Source of the DNA: a virus
Length of the DNA stretch: 29,005 nt
Reading direction: 5' to 3' (one strand)
IMG/VR virus record: IMGVR_UViG_3300036766_000013
Coordinates: 1 to 29,005 of that record
Of the stretch, positions 21,680-28,697 are shown one piece after another (position 1 is the stretch's first letter; every line of letters begins with the position of its first letter). The notes under the pieces are model-generated. The model made no database searches, was not told the origin of the DNA, and saw nothing but the letters and a program-made list of their open reading frames with translations. The position numbers were made by a program, and so were the translations under genes.

Positions 21680-22600
21680 CTACTTTCCTTCAGAGCTAGT
21701 CCTACGGGTGATGCCTTTTGGTGGCACCCACAGCGTGATGGCCCCTGTCGTCTGGTTATAGTCCGCGTGCCGCAAGATGTGCGCCATACGGGCCGTGAGT
21801 AGGGCGTCCTTCTCGGTAAGACCAGCCTTCTCGTAGTTGGACACCACGCAACCCCACAAGTTACCCGCCGCTGGTGAACTCACCCACTTGGTGGTGCGCT
21901 GGCCCTTGCGGATGCCCCGCGTCACGACACCATGCTCCGGGGACAAAAGCTGTGGGTCCGTCAGAATGTCCTTCGCCCGCGTCATGCCAATACCTGGGCA
22001 GCCAATGTAGCCGTCAACGCGGTCGCCAGCGAGGGTCTGCACAAGGTGGAACCAGTCGGCAAACTCAGGGGTTACCCCCCGGACGAACCGCTTACCGTTT
22101 GAGTTAATGTCCCGGTGAAGCTGGTGGTGGAGGCCGGGGATTGTATCGAAGTCCTTGTCCTTGCCGACTATCACGGTACGCCCCGGATAGTCTGTGTTGG
22201 GGTTGGTAGCCATGATGCCGATAAGGTCATCTGCCTCAAGGGTTGGCATGTGGGTAGCACCGTATTTGTCCCTGAGGTATTGCTTCAGGTGTCCCAGAAG
22301 CATGGGTCTTACATCAAGCTCCCCTTCGGCCCTAGCCCTGTGTGCCTTATACTCAGGCATTAACTCCATGCGCCAGTTGGCAAGCGGGTCGCTGAGGAAC
22401 ACCATGATGCCGTGGGCTTCCAGGTCCCGCATGAGGCCAAGGATCATGTTGTCAACAACGGTCTCGCCCTGCATGGCGTTGGCCAATGGCTTGATGAACC
22501 CGTCAAAGTCCATCACGTTCTCCTGACAGGCCGCCGACGCCATGTAGGCTATGGTGTCCCCGTCAATGAGCAAGGTGGTCTGCTCGTCGGTGGTGGTCAT
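21680..22600 (-). CDS. 5'-3' exonuclease, T7 gp6-like (FEN/PIN type)
   Basis: It removes RNA primers and degrades host DNA in T7. The 306-residue protein (T7 gp6 is 300) shows the FEN-type acidic residues in order: LLIDGDTIAYMAS (about 10-22), FLSDPLANWRMELMPEYKAH (about 68-87), PTLEADDLIGIMAT (about 117-130) and VGKDKDFDTIPGLHHQL (about 142-158). QTLAGDRVDGYIGCPGIG (about 188-205) is the helix-hairpin-helix. The ATG overlaps the stop of the preceding small gene by four bases. It is placed after DNA polymerase, as in T7. Confidence 0.92.
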   Translation of the reverse strand: MTTTDEQTTLLIDGDTIAYMASAACQENVMDFDGFIKPLANAMQGETVVDNMILGLMRDLEAHGIMVFLSDPLANWRMELMPEYKAHRARAEGELDVRPMLLGHLKQYLRDKYGATHMPTLEADDLIGIMATNPNTDYPGRTVIVGKDKDFDTIPGLHHQLHRDINSNGKRFVRGVTPEFADWFHLVQTLAGDRVDGYIGCPGIGMTRAKDILTDPQLLSPEHGVVTRGIRKGQRTTKWVSSPAAGNLWGCVVSNYEKAGLTEKDALLTARMAHILRHADYNQTTGAITLWVPPKGITRRTSSEGK

Positions 22601-22879: not shown

Positions 22880-25024
22880 TTAGTGGGTTTCCGCCCAGTT
22901 CCGGCCCGTCTTGCTCTCGGTCCTGAAGGAGCCTTTAAGCCCAAGGAACTCCCCTGCCTCTTTGGCTGCCTCGTTGGATATGCTCTTGATGGCCTCCCCG
23001 ATGCCAGGCCTGTGCTCGATTTGCTTTTCATCGTGGACCCATAGAACCTGGTTGTAGTCTACCTTTAGGTGATACCCGGCCCCTGCCATGCGGCGCTGGA
23101 AGATGATGATCCAGACCTTGCAGGCTATGGCCCCGGCACCTTGAAGCTTGGTGTTGAGGGCGGCGAAGGCCTTGCGGATTACTAGCTTCCTACCGTCAAG
23201 CGCCACAATCCACCCCCTAGCGGCCTCCTTTGCGGTGGCCTCCTTAAGCTCTTTCAGCCCGGTGATGGCCGCCTCGAACTTCTTGATGACCGTGCCACCC
23301 TTGGCTATGAGCGCCTTGTTGTGGTCAGATGGTTCCCTGTAGTCGTCCCCTAGGTTGCGTTGCATCCATTTCAGGGTGGCCAGCATCCCCTTGTCGTCTT
23401 GCAGGTCAGCCACCTCGTCATCCGTGACGCCTACAGAGCTACCGATGTTTAGTTTACCGGCACCGTAGATGTACGCATACCAAATGGTCTTGGTTGGTGC
23501 CCGCCCCAGGCCGGTCATCACACCATGTTCCGTATGGGCATCCCGCCCAGGGTCACACACACGCTCCGAGAACACGCCACCGTCAAGTGGATGTAGGTAG
23601 TGTCCTAGGCATATGAACTCCAGGCTGGACATATCTGAGCCTGTAAGCTCCCACCCATCGCGGGCCTTGAACAGGGATCGGCCCTCGTAGCCGAACCCTC
23701 CGGGTATTCCCATTAGTATGTTGCCATCGTCGTCCTTCCTTACGGATGGAACCTGACCAAGATTAGGATTGAAGTGAGAACCGCGTGAGCTAATGGTGCC
23801 AAGGGGATCAACACGCCCATGAATACGCTCATCATCAGAGAGGAAGGCCATCCACGACTTGCCCCCGTCATGGACCATTCCCAGCATCTTGGTGACAATG
23901 AAGTAGTCCAGTATAGACTTGCGCACCTCATCGCTTATTATCCCAGGTGGGAGGGACTTGATGGCACCCTCGTCAACAGTAGGCTTGCCATTAGGGTTGA
24001 AGATGTTGGGGACCCAGCCGAATAGCTTCTGTAGGCGGTCAGCCAGGTGGTCACGGCTGTTCGGGTTGAACTCAGTGTAGTCTATGCGGCAATACGGCGA
24101 CCCCGCAATGTAATACTCTTTTGGTGGACCAACATACGGTGCCAGCGGCTTGCCACTCTTGCCTACTCGTTGGACCGTAATGTCTGGGAACTGAGGCAGC
24201 TTAAGGGTGCGGTCCCGTGGCATCGTCCTTCCGGTCTTTTGGTTGTCACGGGATATGTACCATGAACCAAACACCTTTCGAAGGTCAGAGCCAAGCGCCG
24301 CCTTCTGGTTGTCCAGTGAGGCCTTAAGGGCAACCACTCCGTTGGTGTCAAAGGCAACCCCGATGTCCTCCTGGGAGGATATGATGTTGGCGAACTCATG
24401 CTCAATCCATATTGGCTTATATGGCCACACGTAGTCACCCAGTGCAGGGTCCTCCCACCCTAGGCGCTTGAAGATGAGCTTGAATAAGGCCCTGTTTACC
24501 ACGCCGTCCTGGACCATATAATCCTGCATGGACTGGTCCCACGGGGTATCGTACCAACCATCAGCCGGGACGAACTCTCCCTTATAGTTCCCGAGCCTGT
24601 AGCCCCAGGCCCCCAAGCTCTGGCGCTTGAGGTATTTACCCGGCATCCTACCAGACCGGAATAGCTTCATGTCAGGCACGATGAGGCTGTCTGCGGGCCA
24701 TATCATCTTACAGATTATAAGGCTGTCCAGCGTGAGGAGCCGCTTGAAGTCGTACGTAGGGAAGATGTACTGTATAGCCCGATTGTCAAAGTTCTGGAAG
24801 TTGTGACCCCCTACGACGCCAACCTCATCCATCATCCACTCTGGGTACTGCTTGATGGTGTCAGGCGTCCACTCGAAGGTCTCACCCGTGAAGTAATCTA
24901 TGGCGGTAGCGCAGTGCATCTTGTCCATGGGCTTGGACTTGGACATGCCTGGGAGGAGGCCGTTGGTCTCTACATCCGAGATAACGAACCGGCCTTTAGG
25001 CACCTCCATTGGGAACTGAAGCAC
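22880..25024 (-). CDS. DNA polymerase, family A, T7 gp5-like
   Basis: The replicative polymerase with proofreading (714 residues; T7 gp5 is 704). The exonuclease part has DVETNG (17-22), GHNFQNFD (about 73-80) and YMVQDGVVNRALF, matching Exo I-III acidic residues. The polymerase part has motif A SDMSSLEFICLGH (463-475, metal Asp464), motif B RAPTKTIWYAYIYGAG (508-523, with Arg508, Lys512, Tyr516) and motif C VHDE (663-666). T7 polymerase uses host thioredoxin through a thumb loop; I cannot tell whether this one does. It starts with GTG at 25024, with GAGGTGA seven bases upstream. An ATG at 25009 is an alternative. Confidence 0.95.
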   Translation of the reverse strand: MLQFPMEVPKGRFVISDVETNGLLPGMSKSKPMDKMHCATAIDYFTGETFEWTPDTIKQYPEWMMDEVGVVGGHNFQNFDNRAIQYIFPTYDFKRLLTLDSLIICKMIWPADSLIVPDMKLFRSGRMPGKYLKRQSLGAWGYRLGNYKGEFVPADGWYDTPWDQSMQDYMVQDGVVNRALFKLIFKRLGWEDPALGDYVWPYKPIWIEHEFANIISSQEDIGVAFDTNGVVALKASLDNQKAALGSDLRKVFGSWYISRDNQKTGRTMPRDRTLKLPQFPDITVQRVGKSGKPLAPYVGPPKEYYIAGSPYCRIDYTEFNPNSRDHLADRLQKLFGWVPNIFNPNGKPTVDEGAIKSLPPGIISDEVRKSILDYFIVTKMLGMVHDGGKSWMAFLSDDERIHGRVDPLGTISSRGSHFNPNLGQVPSVRKDDDGNILMGIPGGFGYEGRSLFKARDGWELTGSDMSSLEFICLGHYLHPLDGGVFSERVCDPGRDAHTEHGVMTGLGRAPTKTIWYAYIYGAGKLNIGSSVGVTDDEVADLQDDKGMLATLKWMQRNLGDDYREPSDHNKALIAKGGTVIKKFEAAITGLKELKEATAKEAARGWIVALDGRKLVIRKAFAALNTKLQGAGAIACKVWIIIFQRRMAGAGYHLKVDYNQVLWVHDEKQIEHRPGIGEAIKSISNEAAKEAGEFLGLKGSFRTESKTGRNWAETH

Positions 25025-25033
25025 TGTGTCACC

Positions 25034-25237
25034 TCATATGATAAACCCCATGACTGACCCAAGGCTTGGTACGAACAGACCAACAGCCCGCAAGGCAAGC
25101 TGTGTGGGAGTTCCGTGGAGCATGGCCAACATAGCGGCGTTGCTGACCCACCCCCCTAGGGATAATACTGTGGTGGCGGCGAAGCCTGCCATCACCACCC
25201 ACTTGAGGATCACATACCGCACCTGTGAGGGGCGCAC
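25034..25237 (-). CDS. Small two-segment membrane protein (paralogue B)
   Basis: A 67-residue protein with hydrophobic segments at about 8-30 (YVILKWVVMAGFAATTVLSL) and 46-67 (QLALRAVGLFVPSLGSVMGF). Its GGWxxN motif and C-terminal LRxVGxFVxxxGxxxGxI pattern match the 69-residue protein encoded directly upstream, so the pair looks like a tandem duplication. The start is GTG at 25237, immediately after the TAG of that gene. It could be an inner-membrane protein that affects the host or a holin-like protein. No family is recognised. Confidence 0.65.
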   Translation of the reverse strand: MRPSQVRYVILKWVVMAGFAATTVLSLGGWVSNAAMLAMLHGTPTQLALRAVGLFVPSLGSVMGFII

Positions 25238-25444
25238 CTAGTAGATGTATCCGAGGATCACGCCTATGGGGAAAACGAACATGCCCACCACGCGCAGCAC
25301 AACCATGCCGCTGATCTCCCTAGCGTGGGCAATGTGGACGATGTTGGCCCCCCACCCACCGGCAGCAGCGATGAAGAACAGGGTGGGTACAGCGATCATG
25401 GCGGCGAATTGCCAGCGCTCCTTAGCGTCGAGTTTTATCGGCAT
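25238..25444 (-). CDS. Small two-segment membrane protein (paralogue A)
   Basis: A 68-residue protein from the ATG at 25444, which overlaps the TGA stop of the upstream gene (TGATG). A GTG one codon earlier (25447) is possible. Hydrophobic segments lie at about 14-30 (AAMIAVPTLFFIAAAGGW) and 46-68 (MVVLRVVGMFVFPIGVILGY), joined by a loop NIVHIAHAREISG. It shares the GGW and VLRxVGxF pattern with its downstream neighbour. Topology is short loop, two helices. Function is unknown. Confidence 0.65.
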   Translation of the reverse strand: MPIKLDAKERWQFAAMIAVPTLFFIAAAGGWGANIVHIAHAREISGMVVLRVVGMFVFPIGVILGYIY

Positions 25445-25746
25445 CACTTGACCTCCTTGAAGCCCTTACGGGCTACGGCTGCTGATATGTCGTTCTCAAC
25501 CCTGGAAAGATAATCCATGACTAGGACCTGGCCCTTTGTGGCGTCTACCTTGGCTGCGGCGTCCAGGAGAGTGCTGTCCTTATAGGCCTTGAGTTCCCTG
25601 TAGTTGACACGGTGGTAGAGAAGCGCGTTGTATGCCTTTGTAAGCATCGCCACGAAGCCGCGCGCCAGGTTGAGCCTGATGCCAAGGAGCTTGTTGTCCT
25701 CGATAAGGCCAGTAGGGTCCCCATCATCGGGGGCATTGTTCTTCAT
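25444..25746 (-). CDS. Small helical protein, unknown function
   Basis: A 100-residue protein that starts MKNNAPDDGDPTGLIEDNKL and is predicted helical through the middle (LNLARGFVAMLTKAYNALLY, then RELKAYKDSTLLDAAAKVDA). It ends basic (AVARKGFKEVK). The ATG overlaps the TAA of the primase-helicase gene (TAATG) and the TGA overlaps the next gene, so it is translated in a coupled run. There are no cysteines and no recognisable motif. It may assist the helicase, judging only from coupling. Confidence 0.65.
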   Translation of the reverse strand: MKNNAPDDGDPTGLIEDNKLLGIRLNLARGFVAMLTKAYNALLYHRVNYRELKAYKDSTLLDAAAKVDATKGQVLVMDYLSRVENDISAAVARKGFKEVK

Positions 25747-27485
25747 TACTTGAAGTCCTCGTCGCTAGATGACACGGCGGGAAAGCCCTTGCACACGTCC
25801 GTCTTCTTAGGGGGCCACTTGTCCTTTGTTGGGGCATACCGCCCAGTGTCCATGTCGTACTTGAGCATGGCTATTACGCCAGTAATCCCTATAGCTCTCT
25901 GCTTTAGGACACGGACCCTTAGCAAGTCTGTACGTTCTCCTTGCTGGTCCCGCTCATACGCATACACGTTGTTAGAGAACTGGTAGAGCGCGCCGGAGCC
26001 TTTGATGTCCTGTATTCTCACCTCGCCACCTTCCTCGAAGGGAGTACCATCCGCCTTCTTGAGGTGATATCCTATGTGGATGTGGACCCCGGTGGACCGA
26101 GCTATGGTTGCCAACTCAGCGGCCACCTGGTCCTCAGCCTGGGTGCGGTTTGCTGATGGTAGACCGGCCACTAGGTAGGTCATTGGGTCTATGAACACGA
26201 TCTTGCAGTCCAGGGCTCGTACCATGTACTTCATGTACCCTAGGATGGCTTGTAGCCCGTACTCGGCGTTCTCAGCGTCGTACATCTCCATCAGCCCGCT
26301 TCCGAACAGGTCGGCGTAGAGAAGGGCCGCCTCATCGTTGGGCACAGGGTTGAGGTGCAGACGCCTCCCCGTATGGATTGACAGGAGGCCAAGCTTGACG
26401 GACTTCAAGTTATCCTCGAAGCCGAACCAGCCGATCTTACACGGAGGCTGCGTAGGTGTCCCAGGTGTAAACGTCTTGCCTTCCCACATGAGGAGGTGCT
26501 GGGCGTAATGGAGCATAAGGGTCGTCTTGGCAATGCCAGTCCCACCAACATGATAGCTGACCTCCCCAGGTCTCATCCCAAGTAATTGATCGTTGAAGCA
26601 CGGCCACGGGTACGGCCAGGCTGCAACCTGTATGCCACCGGCCAGTATGTCCGCAAGTCCGTCCCTGGCGTTGATGATGCCAACAGGCCGCCACGTTGAG
26701 GCTGACCACACGGCCTGGTCAATGTCGCCACCACGGTTCGCCACCAGGGCGGCGTTGATCGTGTGGTGCTCATCAAGCTTGGCTATCTTGACCTTACCGG
26801 CGTCGAATAGGGCAGCGCACTGCTGGGCCGCACGGTCCCACTCAACGCCTGGCTGGAAGAACAGGACAATCTCGGCAAAGCGGTCCAGCCAGCGGTAGTT
26901 GGCCTTGATGGACCTGCTGGCGGCCTCTGCCCCTGCGTTGACGGATACAGCCGGGACGCGGAACCTTGTGACCTGGCCTACTGACATGGCGTCTAGGCGG
27001 TCTGATGTGACGATGACCTTACGGTCCTTCGAGTCACCATATACGTGCCTGCCGTAAAGCTGCGTGGTGTCGGCATCCACCCTGTCCCCGGTTGGATATA
27101 GCGTGGCGGTCGTCCCATCGCCTTTGCGGGCAAGCTGGGCTACCATCTCTCCGGTGTCGTTATACAGCGGGGCTATCAGGCAGCTCTCGCCCCCATGCCC
27201 GGCCACGAAGGTCCCGTACCGGCGCAAGGTGTCCTGGTCCAGGTTGCGGGCGGATAGGCGCTGGAAGGCTCCATCCCGTGGGCGTATCAGGCCTGGCGGT
27301 ATAATAGCCTTTGTAGGAGGCTGCCACGTCCTGCCCTTCCTATGTCCGCAGCCCTTGGTAAAACACACCTCCGAGCCGTCCGCGTATATCTGCACTGAGT
27401 TCTTCTTGTTGCAGCCGCCGCACGTTACCCTGGAGATTGGCGTCTGGGCCGGGTCCCCATCACCTTCCGTGGGCTTCTCGCTCAT
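25746..27485 (-). CDS. Primase-helicase, T7 gp4-like, with degenerate TOPRIM active site
   Basis: The replicative helicase (579 residues from the ATG at 27485; the frame is open to 27602, but that extension lies inside the upstream gene and looks non-coding). Domains in order: a zinc site C22xxC25...C41xxxxC46GH, a TOPRIM-like region (about 100-250) and a RecA-type helicase (about 270-579). The helicase keeps Walker A GGTGIAKT (314-321, Ala in place of the last Gly), Glu357, Walker B IVFID (429-433), His474 and the Arg finger region LKQR (527-530). The TOPRIM acidic residues look lost: T7 VTEGEID is VTSDRLD (159-165) and T7 FDMDEAG is FQPGVEW. The tail SSSDEDFK is acidic with a Phe near the end, like the T7 polymerase contact. 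Confidence 0.92.
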   Translation of the reverse strand: MSEKPTEGDGDPAQTPISRVTCGGCNKKNSVQIYADGSEVCFTKGCGHRKGRTWQPPTKAIIPPGLIRPRDGAFQRLSARNLDQDTLRRYGTFVAGHGGESCLIAPLYNDTGEMVAQLARKGDGTTATLYPTGDRVDADTTQLYGRHVYGDSKDRKVIVTSDRLDAMSVGQVTRFRVPAVSVNAGAEAASRSIKANYRWLDRFAEIVLFFQPGVEWDRAAQQCAALFDAGKVKIAKLDEHHTINAALVANRGGDIDQAVWSASTWRPVGIINARDGLADILAGGIQVAAWPYPWPCFNDQLLGMRPGEVSYHVGGTGIAKTTLMLHYAQHLLMWEGKTFTPGTPTQPPCKIGWFGFEDNLKSVKLGLLSIHTGRRLHLNPVPNDEAALLYADLFGSGLMEMYDAENAEYGLQAILGYMKYMVRALDCKIVFIDPMTYLVAGLPSANRTQAEDQVAAELATIARSTGVHIHIGYHLKKADGTPFEEGGEVRIQDIKGSGALYQFSNNVYAYERDQQGERTDLLRVRVLKQRAIGITGVIAMLKYDMDTGRYAPTKDKWPPKKTDVCKGFPAVSSSDEDFK

Positions 27486-27486
27486 G

Positions 27487-27864
27487 TTAGTGGGGCCTGG
27501 GTGTGGAGTGGGGCGTCTTGGCGTAGATTGTGTTGGTGACGACATATGCGTAGACCTCGTTGCAGTCCACCATATCTCCAAAGTTGTTCCATGGGTGGTC
27601 AATTACCCATGTAATCGGATAAGAAGGTACTGCCCCACTGTTGCATATACTTTCATGGTACTGGGCTAGGAAGTACCTGTCAGAGCAACGTAGTACGAAC
27701 TCCTTGTGGAGTGTAACATATATGTTGTGGTGGAACCGTAACCTACAAGTTATAACCTCATTGGTAACCTTCTTTAGATGGTTATTAGCCACCTTGGCGC
27801 ACTCAATCCACGTACCGGCATTAACGTCTTTAAGGGTTAGTAGGTCCTCCTTGTCGAACAACAT
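27487..27864 (-). CDS. Unknown protein in an AT-richer patch
   Basis: A 125-residue protein. The ATG has GAGGAAAGGG about eight bases upstream, a strong ribosome site. The sequence (LLTLKDVNAGTWIECAKVAN, LRFHHNIYVTLHKEFVLRCS, TWVIDHPWNNFGDMVDCNEV) has mixed alpha/beta character with four cysteines and ends in a Pro/His/Thr-rich tail. I recognise no family. Base composition is lower in GC than in the flanking ligase and primase genes, which suggests separate acquisition. It ends one base before the primase-helicase start. Confidence 0.65.
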   Translation of the reverse strand: MLFDKEDLLTLKDVNAGTWIECAKVANNHLKKVTNEVITCRLRFHHNIYVTLHKEFVLRCSDRYFLAQYHESICNSGAVPSYPITWVIDHPWNNFGDMVDCNEVYAYVVTNTIYAKTPHSTPRPH

Positions 27865-27891: not shown

Positions 27892-27993
27892 TCAGTGGTT
27901 TACCCAGATATTAAATGCAACCACCAGGACAATCACCCCTAAGAGGAGATACGGGACTTGGCCGCCGAGATTTATGAGGGCGTCGTAGTACAT
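27892..27993 (-). CDS. 33-residue single-pass membrane peptide
   Basis: Its ATG overlaps the TAA stop of the ligase gene (TAATG), and GAGG lies seven bases upstream at the end of the ligase gene. The peptide begins MYYDALINLGGQVP, has one hydrophobic stretch of about 16 residues (YLLLGVIVLVVAFNIW) and ends VNH. The stop is TGA at 27892-27894, 27 bases before the next gene. The coupling, ribosome site and clean membrane segment support a real gene. Its role is unknown; it could be a small host-membrane effector or a holin-like peptide. Confidence 0.6.
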   Translation of the reverse strand: MYYDALINLGGQVPYLLLGVIVLVVAFNIWVNH

Positions 27994-28697
27994 TAGGCTG
28001 CCTCATTGGCGGTCTTGTCCCAGGTCCGGTCCCGCACGAAGCGCGGATGCCTGAACTTGCCGTCCTTGGTGATGGACATGGCGGCCACCTCTATGACTGC
28101 CGACCCGATGTGCTTACGACGACGCCACCAGGCCTCCCTCTCCTCATCGGAGAACCCGGTCCCAACCTTGCCATTAGGCGTCATGAGGGCACCCATCCGG
28201 CCCATGTGCTTTCCGGTGCCTGGAAGGACTGCCGTTACGGGTACATCGTGGGTCTCTAGTGGCTTGACTTTGATCCACTTGTAGGTGCCTCGCAGGACCA
28301 GGCCTTCAAATCCAGCGTAAACGGCATCCGCCATGTACATCCTGATCGCCGTCTCGGAGGGGTTTTCCAATATGGCCACACACTGGCAGGCTAGTCGGCT
28401 GTCAATGGTGGGCCACAACTCGTAGATACACTCAGGAGGGACTGGTACGCCATCCTTACGCCGCACGAGTCCTACGCTGGTCCCGATGTCATCCTTGAAC
28501 ACCTCAACGATGCGGAGTGGCTGGTCTGGCCGCCATGGCAGGTGGGCATCAAGATTGTAGAGTGGTTTGCCAGCGCGGGATACGGCCCTGTCATGGTGGA
28601 GGCGGGCTTGCACACCGTCTATTTTGAGGGTGACTTGGTAGGGGCCTTGCAGGGACTTGCCGTTCCACGGTGTAGGCTTGATCCAAGGTCCTGTCAT
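27993..28697 (-). CDS. ATP-dependent DNA ligase (compact, phage type)
   Basis: It seals nicks after primer removal and repair. The nucleotidyltransferase motifs are in order: motif I K25-I-D-G (adenylated Lys25), a downstream Arg in VSRAGKPLYN (motif Ia), RIVEVF (62-67, motif III Glu), GFEGLVLR (129-136, motif IV) and WIKVK (141-145, motif V). Residues 155-234 look like an OB-fold (GRMGALMT, TGFSDEEREAWW, then TKDGKFRHPRFVRDR). At 234 residues it is much shorter than T7 ligase (359). The ATG overlaps the stop of the upstream HTH gene. It is complete, with no sign of truncation. Confidence 0.92.
   Translation of the reverse strand: MTGPWIKPTPWNGKSLQGPYQVTLKIDGVQARLHHDRAVSRAGKPLYNLDAHLPWRPDQPLRIVEVFKDDIGTSVGLVRRKDGVPVPPECIYELWPTIDSRLACQCVAILENPSETAIRMYMADAVYAGFEGLVLRGTYKWIKVKPLETHDVPVTAVLPGTGKHMGRMGALMTPNGKVGTGFSDEEREAWWRRRKHIGSAVIEVAAMSITKDGKFRHPRFVRDRTWDKTANEAA

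Follow-up and report, generated by a model that had tools for sequence, protein, structure and literature searches.

The DNA analysed here (the window) is a whole virus record of 29,005 bases, in which nearly all genes lie on the minus strand. It was found to carry a T7-like set of genes encoding a ligase, gp4, a family A DNA polymerase, a gp6-like exonuclease, portal, scaffold and capsid proteins, and tail tubular and internal virion proteins. The capsid, portal, tail and polymerase genes are T7-like, and the record, a 29-kb fragment, stops short of the RNA polymerase gene. The features of the replication region are as follows, with L091 and L092 denoting two relatives described below.

27993..28697, minus strand: ATP-dependent DNA ligase, 234 aa
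25746..27485, minus strand: gp4-type primase-helicase, 579 aa (PHROG 239, T7 gp4 in PDB, AlphaFold)
27348..27422, minus strand: zinc-binding domain of gp4 with Cys22, Cys25, Cys41 and Cys46; the four cysteines are kept and the rest of the sequence has diverged
27108..27167, minus strand: stretch of the RNA-polymerase domain in which, by alignment with T7, Y111, K122, K128 and F130 are L107, L118, G124 and T126
26991..27011, minus strand: TOPRIM Glu motif, VTSDRLD (T7 VTEGEID); E157 is Ser161, and D161 is retained as Asp165
26838..26858, minus strand: TOPRIM DxD motif, FQPGVEW (T7 FDMDEAG); D207 is Gln211 and D209 is Gly213
26754..26768, minus strand: third TOPRIM acid motif, HHTIN (T7 CKDAN); D237 is Thr242
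25815..26633, minus strand: RecA/DnaB-type helicase domain (Pfam AAA_25, E 4.5e-11; match to T7 helicase 1e0j_A)
26523..26546, minus strand: Walker A motif, GGTGIAKT; the Gly before the Lys is Ala in the window and L091, Ser in L092 and Gly in the sister genomes
25444..25746, minus strand: 100-aa ORF between gp4 and the polymerase, conserved in the clade of the window and its sisters
22880..25009, minus strand: family A (T7 gp5-like) DNA polymerase that retains the active-site motifs of both its exonuclease and its polymerase
21680..22600, minus strand: gp6-like 5'-3' exonuclease, which would remove RNA primers

The gp4 start was placed at the ATG at 27485 (MSEKP...), giving 579 codons; the mechanically called ORF reaches a TTG at 27602. 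The protein matched PHROG 239, 'DNA primase/helicase' (E 1.9e-103), and T7 gp4 in the PDB (E 1.4e-56), and it has full-length homology to gp4 and the gp4 domain order of zinc domain, RNA polymerase domain and RecA helicase. The highest identity to any phage in a collection of 50,697 records was about 33%, and no DNA-level relatives of the window were found among the phage records of that collection, so that cultured members of the lineage appear to be missing from it. The ORF is a T7 gp4-type primase-helicase from an uncultured Autographiviridae-like phage.

T7 has the textbook replisome in which unwinding and priming are carried out by one protein. With T7 gp4 the window protein shares homology over its whole length, the folds of all its domains, the catalytic residues of its helicase and its zinc cysteines, and its gene neighbourhood (SSB, endonuclease, gp4, family A polymerase, exonuclease) is T7-like as well. 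It is unlike T7 gp4 in that the metal-ligand acids, all but one, and the primer-binding residues have been replaced. The first-pass annotation of this DNA, by direct alignment with T7 gp4, had placed VTSDRLD at residues 159-165 and FQPGVEW at 210-216, with the catalytic Glu and the DxD pair replaced by Ser, Gln and Gly. When the T7 register was determined by phmmer, MAFFT and structure-based comparison, all three agreed, the placements proved exact, and the three replacements were confirmed. The losses had been under-counted: the TOPRIM metal ligands E157, D207, D209 and D237 are all absent, with only D161 retained, and Y111, K122, K128 and F130 are gone as well. Residues R84, Y111, F130, K122 and K128 of T7 gp4 are important for primer synthesis (PMC9198812).

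It had also been claimed that the zinc site and all helicase motifs remain, which held for the most part. Cys22, 25, 41 and 46 align with T7 C17, C20, C36 and C39 and form a four-cysteine zinc site, with a spacing of C-x2-C...C-x4-C compared to C-x2-C...C-x2-C in T7; the longer spacing is also present in the TOPRIM-intact sisters. The helicase residues K320, E357, D433, H474 and R530 are retained (equivalents of the Walker A Lys, the catalytic Glu, the Walker B Asp, H465 and the Arg finger R522), whereas the P-loop Gly is not. This Gly before the Walker A Lys is nearly invariant in general, and the change to Ala, Ala and Ser indicates that the helicase motor was altered along with the primase.

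A structure prediction, one of the checks proposed for the first reading, was run with AlphaFold on a 53-sequence alignment. The model of the window gp4 had a mean pLDDT of 90.5, with values >90 through the TOPRIM domain, which is predicted with confidence to have an intact fold. In the model, Ser161 is located right after strand 156-160 and Gln211/Gly213 right after strand 205-209, the sites of the T7 acids. The T7 primase domain 6n9u_F matched residues 63-265 with a Z of 24.9 (rmsd 2.0 Å over 194 residues), and the T7 helicase 1e0j_A matched the model with a Z of 35.1 (rmsd 1.7 Å over 257 residues). The metal-site argument rests on the sequence register, the secondary structure and this overall structural match.

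Relatives were gathered by helicase-only, polymerase-based and NYRWLDRF-based searches. A search by TOPRIM motif patterns can return intact relatives only, with degenerate members escaping, and a search with the single gp4 protein found no degenerate relatives. When the helicase half was used as the query, L091 and L092 were recovered, their helicase halves being 56 and 48% identical to the query. These are two independent contigs, with gp4 proteins 49 and 44% identical to that of the window, and the primase loss is common to both. The residues that replace the motifs differ, being VIHRDPRDAMS and FFGADSTW in L091 (which retains an Asp at the D209 position) and VVCQTPKDAMA and LFEASPEG in L092. 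The sister group consists of five contigs with an intact gp4 (L011, L200, L201, L203 and L205). It was found that Y111, K122, K128, F130, E157, E159, D207 and D237 were lost in all three clade members and kept in all five sisters, and that the zinc cysteines and helicase residues K318, E343, D424, H465 and R522 (T7 numbering) were kept in every member of both groups. Similarly, the Pfam Toprim_2 profile matched four sister genomes (E 1.8e-12 to 1.2e-14) and failed to match any of the three clade members with the cutoff relaxed to E<=1. An annotation of 'DNA primase/helicase' can be wrong for half of the protein.

A maximum-likelihood tree was built from the helicase region alone, with the columns of the primase trait excluded. 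The three genomes formed one clade (support 100/97) within an eight-member group that also holds the intact sisters (100/100). At the four scored acid columns, E, D, D and D were present in 169 of 179 gp4 rows, these being the rows with all four columns; many of the loci were fetched via the polymerase, and hence were not chosen for gp4. The ten departing rows comprised eight from the three clade genomes (some fetched repeatedly), L063 (D209N only) and L097, so strong departure among the 179 rows was confined to the window clade and one Rhizobacter prophage (L097), and the tree requires a separate loss in each. Because 169 of the 179 rows keep these acids, and because two independent contigs share the loss with different replacements, the loss of the E/D acids in the window gp4 is not due to chance.

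Two other gp4 proteins deserve mention in their own right. The L063 protein (L063:1442-2959) has an Asn in place of the second Asp of DxD (DEN) and is otherwise intact. The gp4 of Rhizobium phage RHph_I20 (L227:10292-11827) is annotated without a zinc-binding domain, and its TOPRIM acids are intact, a situation opposite to that in the window; its annotated start may be wrong.

The window is a single metagenomic record, and a sequencing error, a chimera or a decaying pseudogene could in principle give such a sequence. The frame is open, the flanking NYRWLDRF is conserved, the helicase catalytic residues are intact and the fold is confident, and the same loss with different replacements was seen in three independent contigs. 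An artefact is scarcely credible on these grounds, and was ruled out by the independent clade members L091 and L092.

The acids that might substitute in the metal site, Asp162, Asp165, Glu215 and Asp217, had been named beforehand as what would overturn the reading of a loss. Across the clade, position 162 was D/D/T, 215 was E/T/E and 217 was D/E/L, leaving Asp165 as the one conserved acid; no alternative conserved acid was found in the TOPRIM pocket across the three members, so the reading stands. It is conceivable that gp4 still primes via a rearranged site in which D165 is joined by acids close to the pocket that are not conserved, which would agree with the presence of D165 in all three proteins, the Asp at the D209 position in L091 and the retained zinc cysteines. 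However, a second pocket acid is not conserved, and the primer-binding residues K122, K128, Y111 and F130 are gone too, and we consider continued priming by gp4 to be very improbable.

The divergence of gp4 was compared to that of other proteins of the same phages. Identity of the DNA polymerase was equal in the two groups (0.54 within the clade and 0.54 within the sisters), and that of the portal protein was 0.52 within the clade vs 0.53 within the sisters. For gp4, the respective values were 0.33 vs 0.72 in the zinc domain, 0.48 vs 0.71 in the TOPRIM domain and 0.52 vs 0.68 in the helicase. These identities point to a relaxation that is greatest in the primase half. Structural TOPRIM stretches such as NYRWLDRF stay conserved in the clade; therefore, the TOPRIM domain is retained as a fold.

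As the first-pass annotation had suspected, the gp4 of the window clade very probably lacks primer-making activity, to judge from residues: the metal ligands and primer-binding residues are gone clade-wide, and the fold and the helicase are retained. The protein would be a genuine orthologue of gp4, now a helicase whose primase domain is catalytically dead; the metal-binding acids and primer-binding residues were presumably lost once in the lineage, which retained the ring helicase, the zinc cysteines and the fold of the TOPRIM domain. The N-terminal half of T7 gp4 and of human Twinkle is reported to help in loading of the ring on DNA and in coupling to the polymerase, and the N-terminal half of the clade gp4 was probably retained for the same purposes.

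Primase-dead gp4 homologues are already known in animals. Animal mitochondria combine Twinkle, a gp4 homologue whose primase is dead, with a T7-like RNA polymerase (POLRMT) and a family A DNA polymerase (PMC9860392, PMC7231222, PMC12230644), and the clade is like this metazoan system in having a gp4 homologue with a folded and very probably dead primase beside the same two kinds of polymerase. The Twinkle-type combination, a gp4 fold whose RNA polymerase domain has lost its catalytic residues (PMC12230644, PMC9860392), is present in the window protein. Human Twinkle has just one of the four zinc cysteines left (PMC7231222); in the phage clade, by contrast, none of them is missing and it is the polymerase-domain residues that are lost, and the phage loss is of independent origin. 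The zinc site, lost in animals and retained here, thus makes the two losses distinguishable. The window clade appears to belong to the gp4 family by descent, to lack the catalytic trait by which a primase is defined, and to work like Twinkle with the zinc site kept. The 56-kDa short form of T7 gp4, gp4B, is also a helicase without primase activity and comes from the same gene; unlike the window protein, gp4B lacks the zinc domain, because its translation starts internally, and acts together with gp4A, whereas the window gene keeps the zinc domain and cannot encode a form with the TOPRIM acids. In the open-access literature, itself only part of the literature, we found animal Twinkle and no phage precedent for a primase-dead gp4. 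The clade offers, in a virus of bacteria, a parallel to the primase loss of animal Twinkle. A T7-like clade that has very probably dropped priming and kept the rest separates the two functions by evolution, and it raises the question of how the lagging strand is copied.

The other replication genes bear on this question. The L091 record (G001:C1:1-46790) has a 127-base exact end overlap and T7-like genes in circularly permuted order; therefore, it represents a complete circular genome, G001. This temperate-type T7-like phage with an integrase is a useful reference for the uncultured clade. It encodes a T7-like RNA polymerase, a gp2.5-like SSB, endonuclease I, an amidase, gp4, DNA polymerase, exonuclease and an integrase. 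G001 and G002 (the latter from L092), the two clade genomes that extend over the region, each encode a T7-like RNA polymerase with intact catalytic motifs, and each carries the integrase, which marks these as temperate-type phages. In the DNA polymerases of all three clade genomes, the DxE of the exonuclease and motifs A and C of the polymerase are retained.

A recognisable replacement primase is absent from the one complete genome of the clade. Pfam profiles for Prim-Pol, Toprim_3 and the DnaG zinc ribbon gave no match, and Toprim_2 matched only the sisters' own gp4. The ORFs of the clade without an assigned function, when compared to Pfam, yielded an integrase, regulators and DUF3310, and no primase. 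A gene-by-gene comparison of the clade with the sisters found no clade-shared extra gene of primase size, the clade-shared genes absent from the sisters all being <=~100 aa except for a diverged spanin-like protein. The earlier suggestion that another enzyme would be needed to start Okazaki fragments is supported by this absence, and the source of the primers is something we infer. About 20 small ORFs in G001 were left unexplained by any search, about 2 kb at 25001-27520 is poorly called sequence, and the window record covers only part of its phage genome, so a phage primase of an unrecognised kind might reside among the small genes of each phage. Given the lack of a match to the Pfam primase families and of a shared gene of sufficient size, we regard this as unlikely.

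The phage DNA polymerase would still be in need of primers made outside gp4, most likely transcripts of the phage RNA polymerase or products of host DnaG. The simplest source would be RNA from the phage single-subunit RNA polymerase. Three points put this enzyme first among the candidates: it is present and intact, the T7 replisome is able to start synthesis from an RNA transcript (PMC5997990), and animal mitochondria, in which POLRMT primes and Twinkle no longer does (PMC9860392, PMC7231222), have the same combination. We hold its role as primer source to be plausible, at somewhat less than even odds. The best explanation as a whole is that of a primase-dead gp4 orthologue with RNA primers made by the phage single-subunit RNA polymerase, to which we assign a probability of roughly 0.45. 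Several observations count against it. If there is no longer any use in recognising a template for priming, it is odd that all four zinc cysteines are retained; the fourfold-site GC skew of the clade was not above that of the sisters, giving no sign of asymmetric replication; and the window fragment ends before the RNA polymerase gene, as well as there being the unexplained ORFs of G001. Counts of GTC-type primase sites showed no consistent difference.

The main rival as a primer source is host DnaG, which is compatible with the same sequence data. It would make the lagging-strand primers after recruitment to phage forks, either directly or by single-stranded DNA, leaving the phage reliant on its host for that single step, and the temperate nature of the phages, with an integrase in both genomes covering that region, is in its favour. 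However, the clade retains its own DNA polymerase with intact motifs and its exonuclease, as well as the SSB and RNA polymerase where covered, and no element for DnaG binding or helicase bridging was identified by the general sequence searches.

A further point on the side of DnaG comes from the Rhizobacter sp. Root404 prophage. Its gp4 (L097:9209-10960) is like that of the window in that the TOPRIM residues (VVVTSSELGALS, ILAFESDEREQ) and K122/K128/F130 are lost and the helicase is kept. Unlike the window, it lies on a separate branch of the tree, has lost three of the four zinc cysteines, and belongs to a prophage without a family A DNA polymerase, a gene found directly behind gp4 in its sisters L099, L074 and L143. 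This primase loss is independent of that in the window clade. Because the zinc site and the family A polymerase were lost alongside the primase residues, L097 reads naturally as a prophage whose replication has passed to the host replisome, and primase loss in this company is what would be expected under such a takeover. Overall, we view priming by host DnaG in the window clade as possible and rather less probable than priming by the phage RNA polymerase.

If the phage RNA polymerase is indeed the source, the clade may have independently rebuilt a mitochondrial-type replisome, with a non-priming gp4 ring, a T7-like DNA polymerase and an RNA polymerase that makes every primer. We put this forward tentatively, with the odds leaning against it; were it true, lagging-strand synthesis would begin at promoters or transcripts and not at primase sites.

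Two minor observations concern neighbouring genes. The short ATP-dependent ligase is present in the window and L092 and absent from the complete L091 genome. Compared to four sister RNA polymerases, which have none of these insertions, the RNA polymerases of L091 and L092 (G001:19852-22554 and G002:6214-8910) have in common an insertion of ~19 residues that follows motif C, close to the C terminus, and contain further small insertions.
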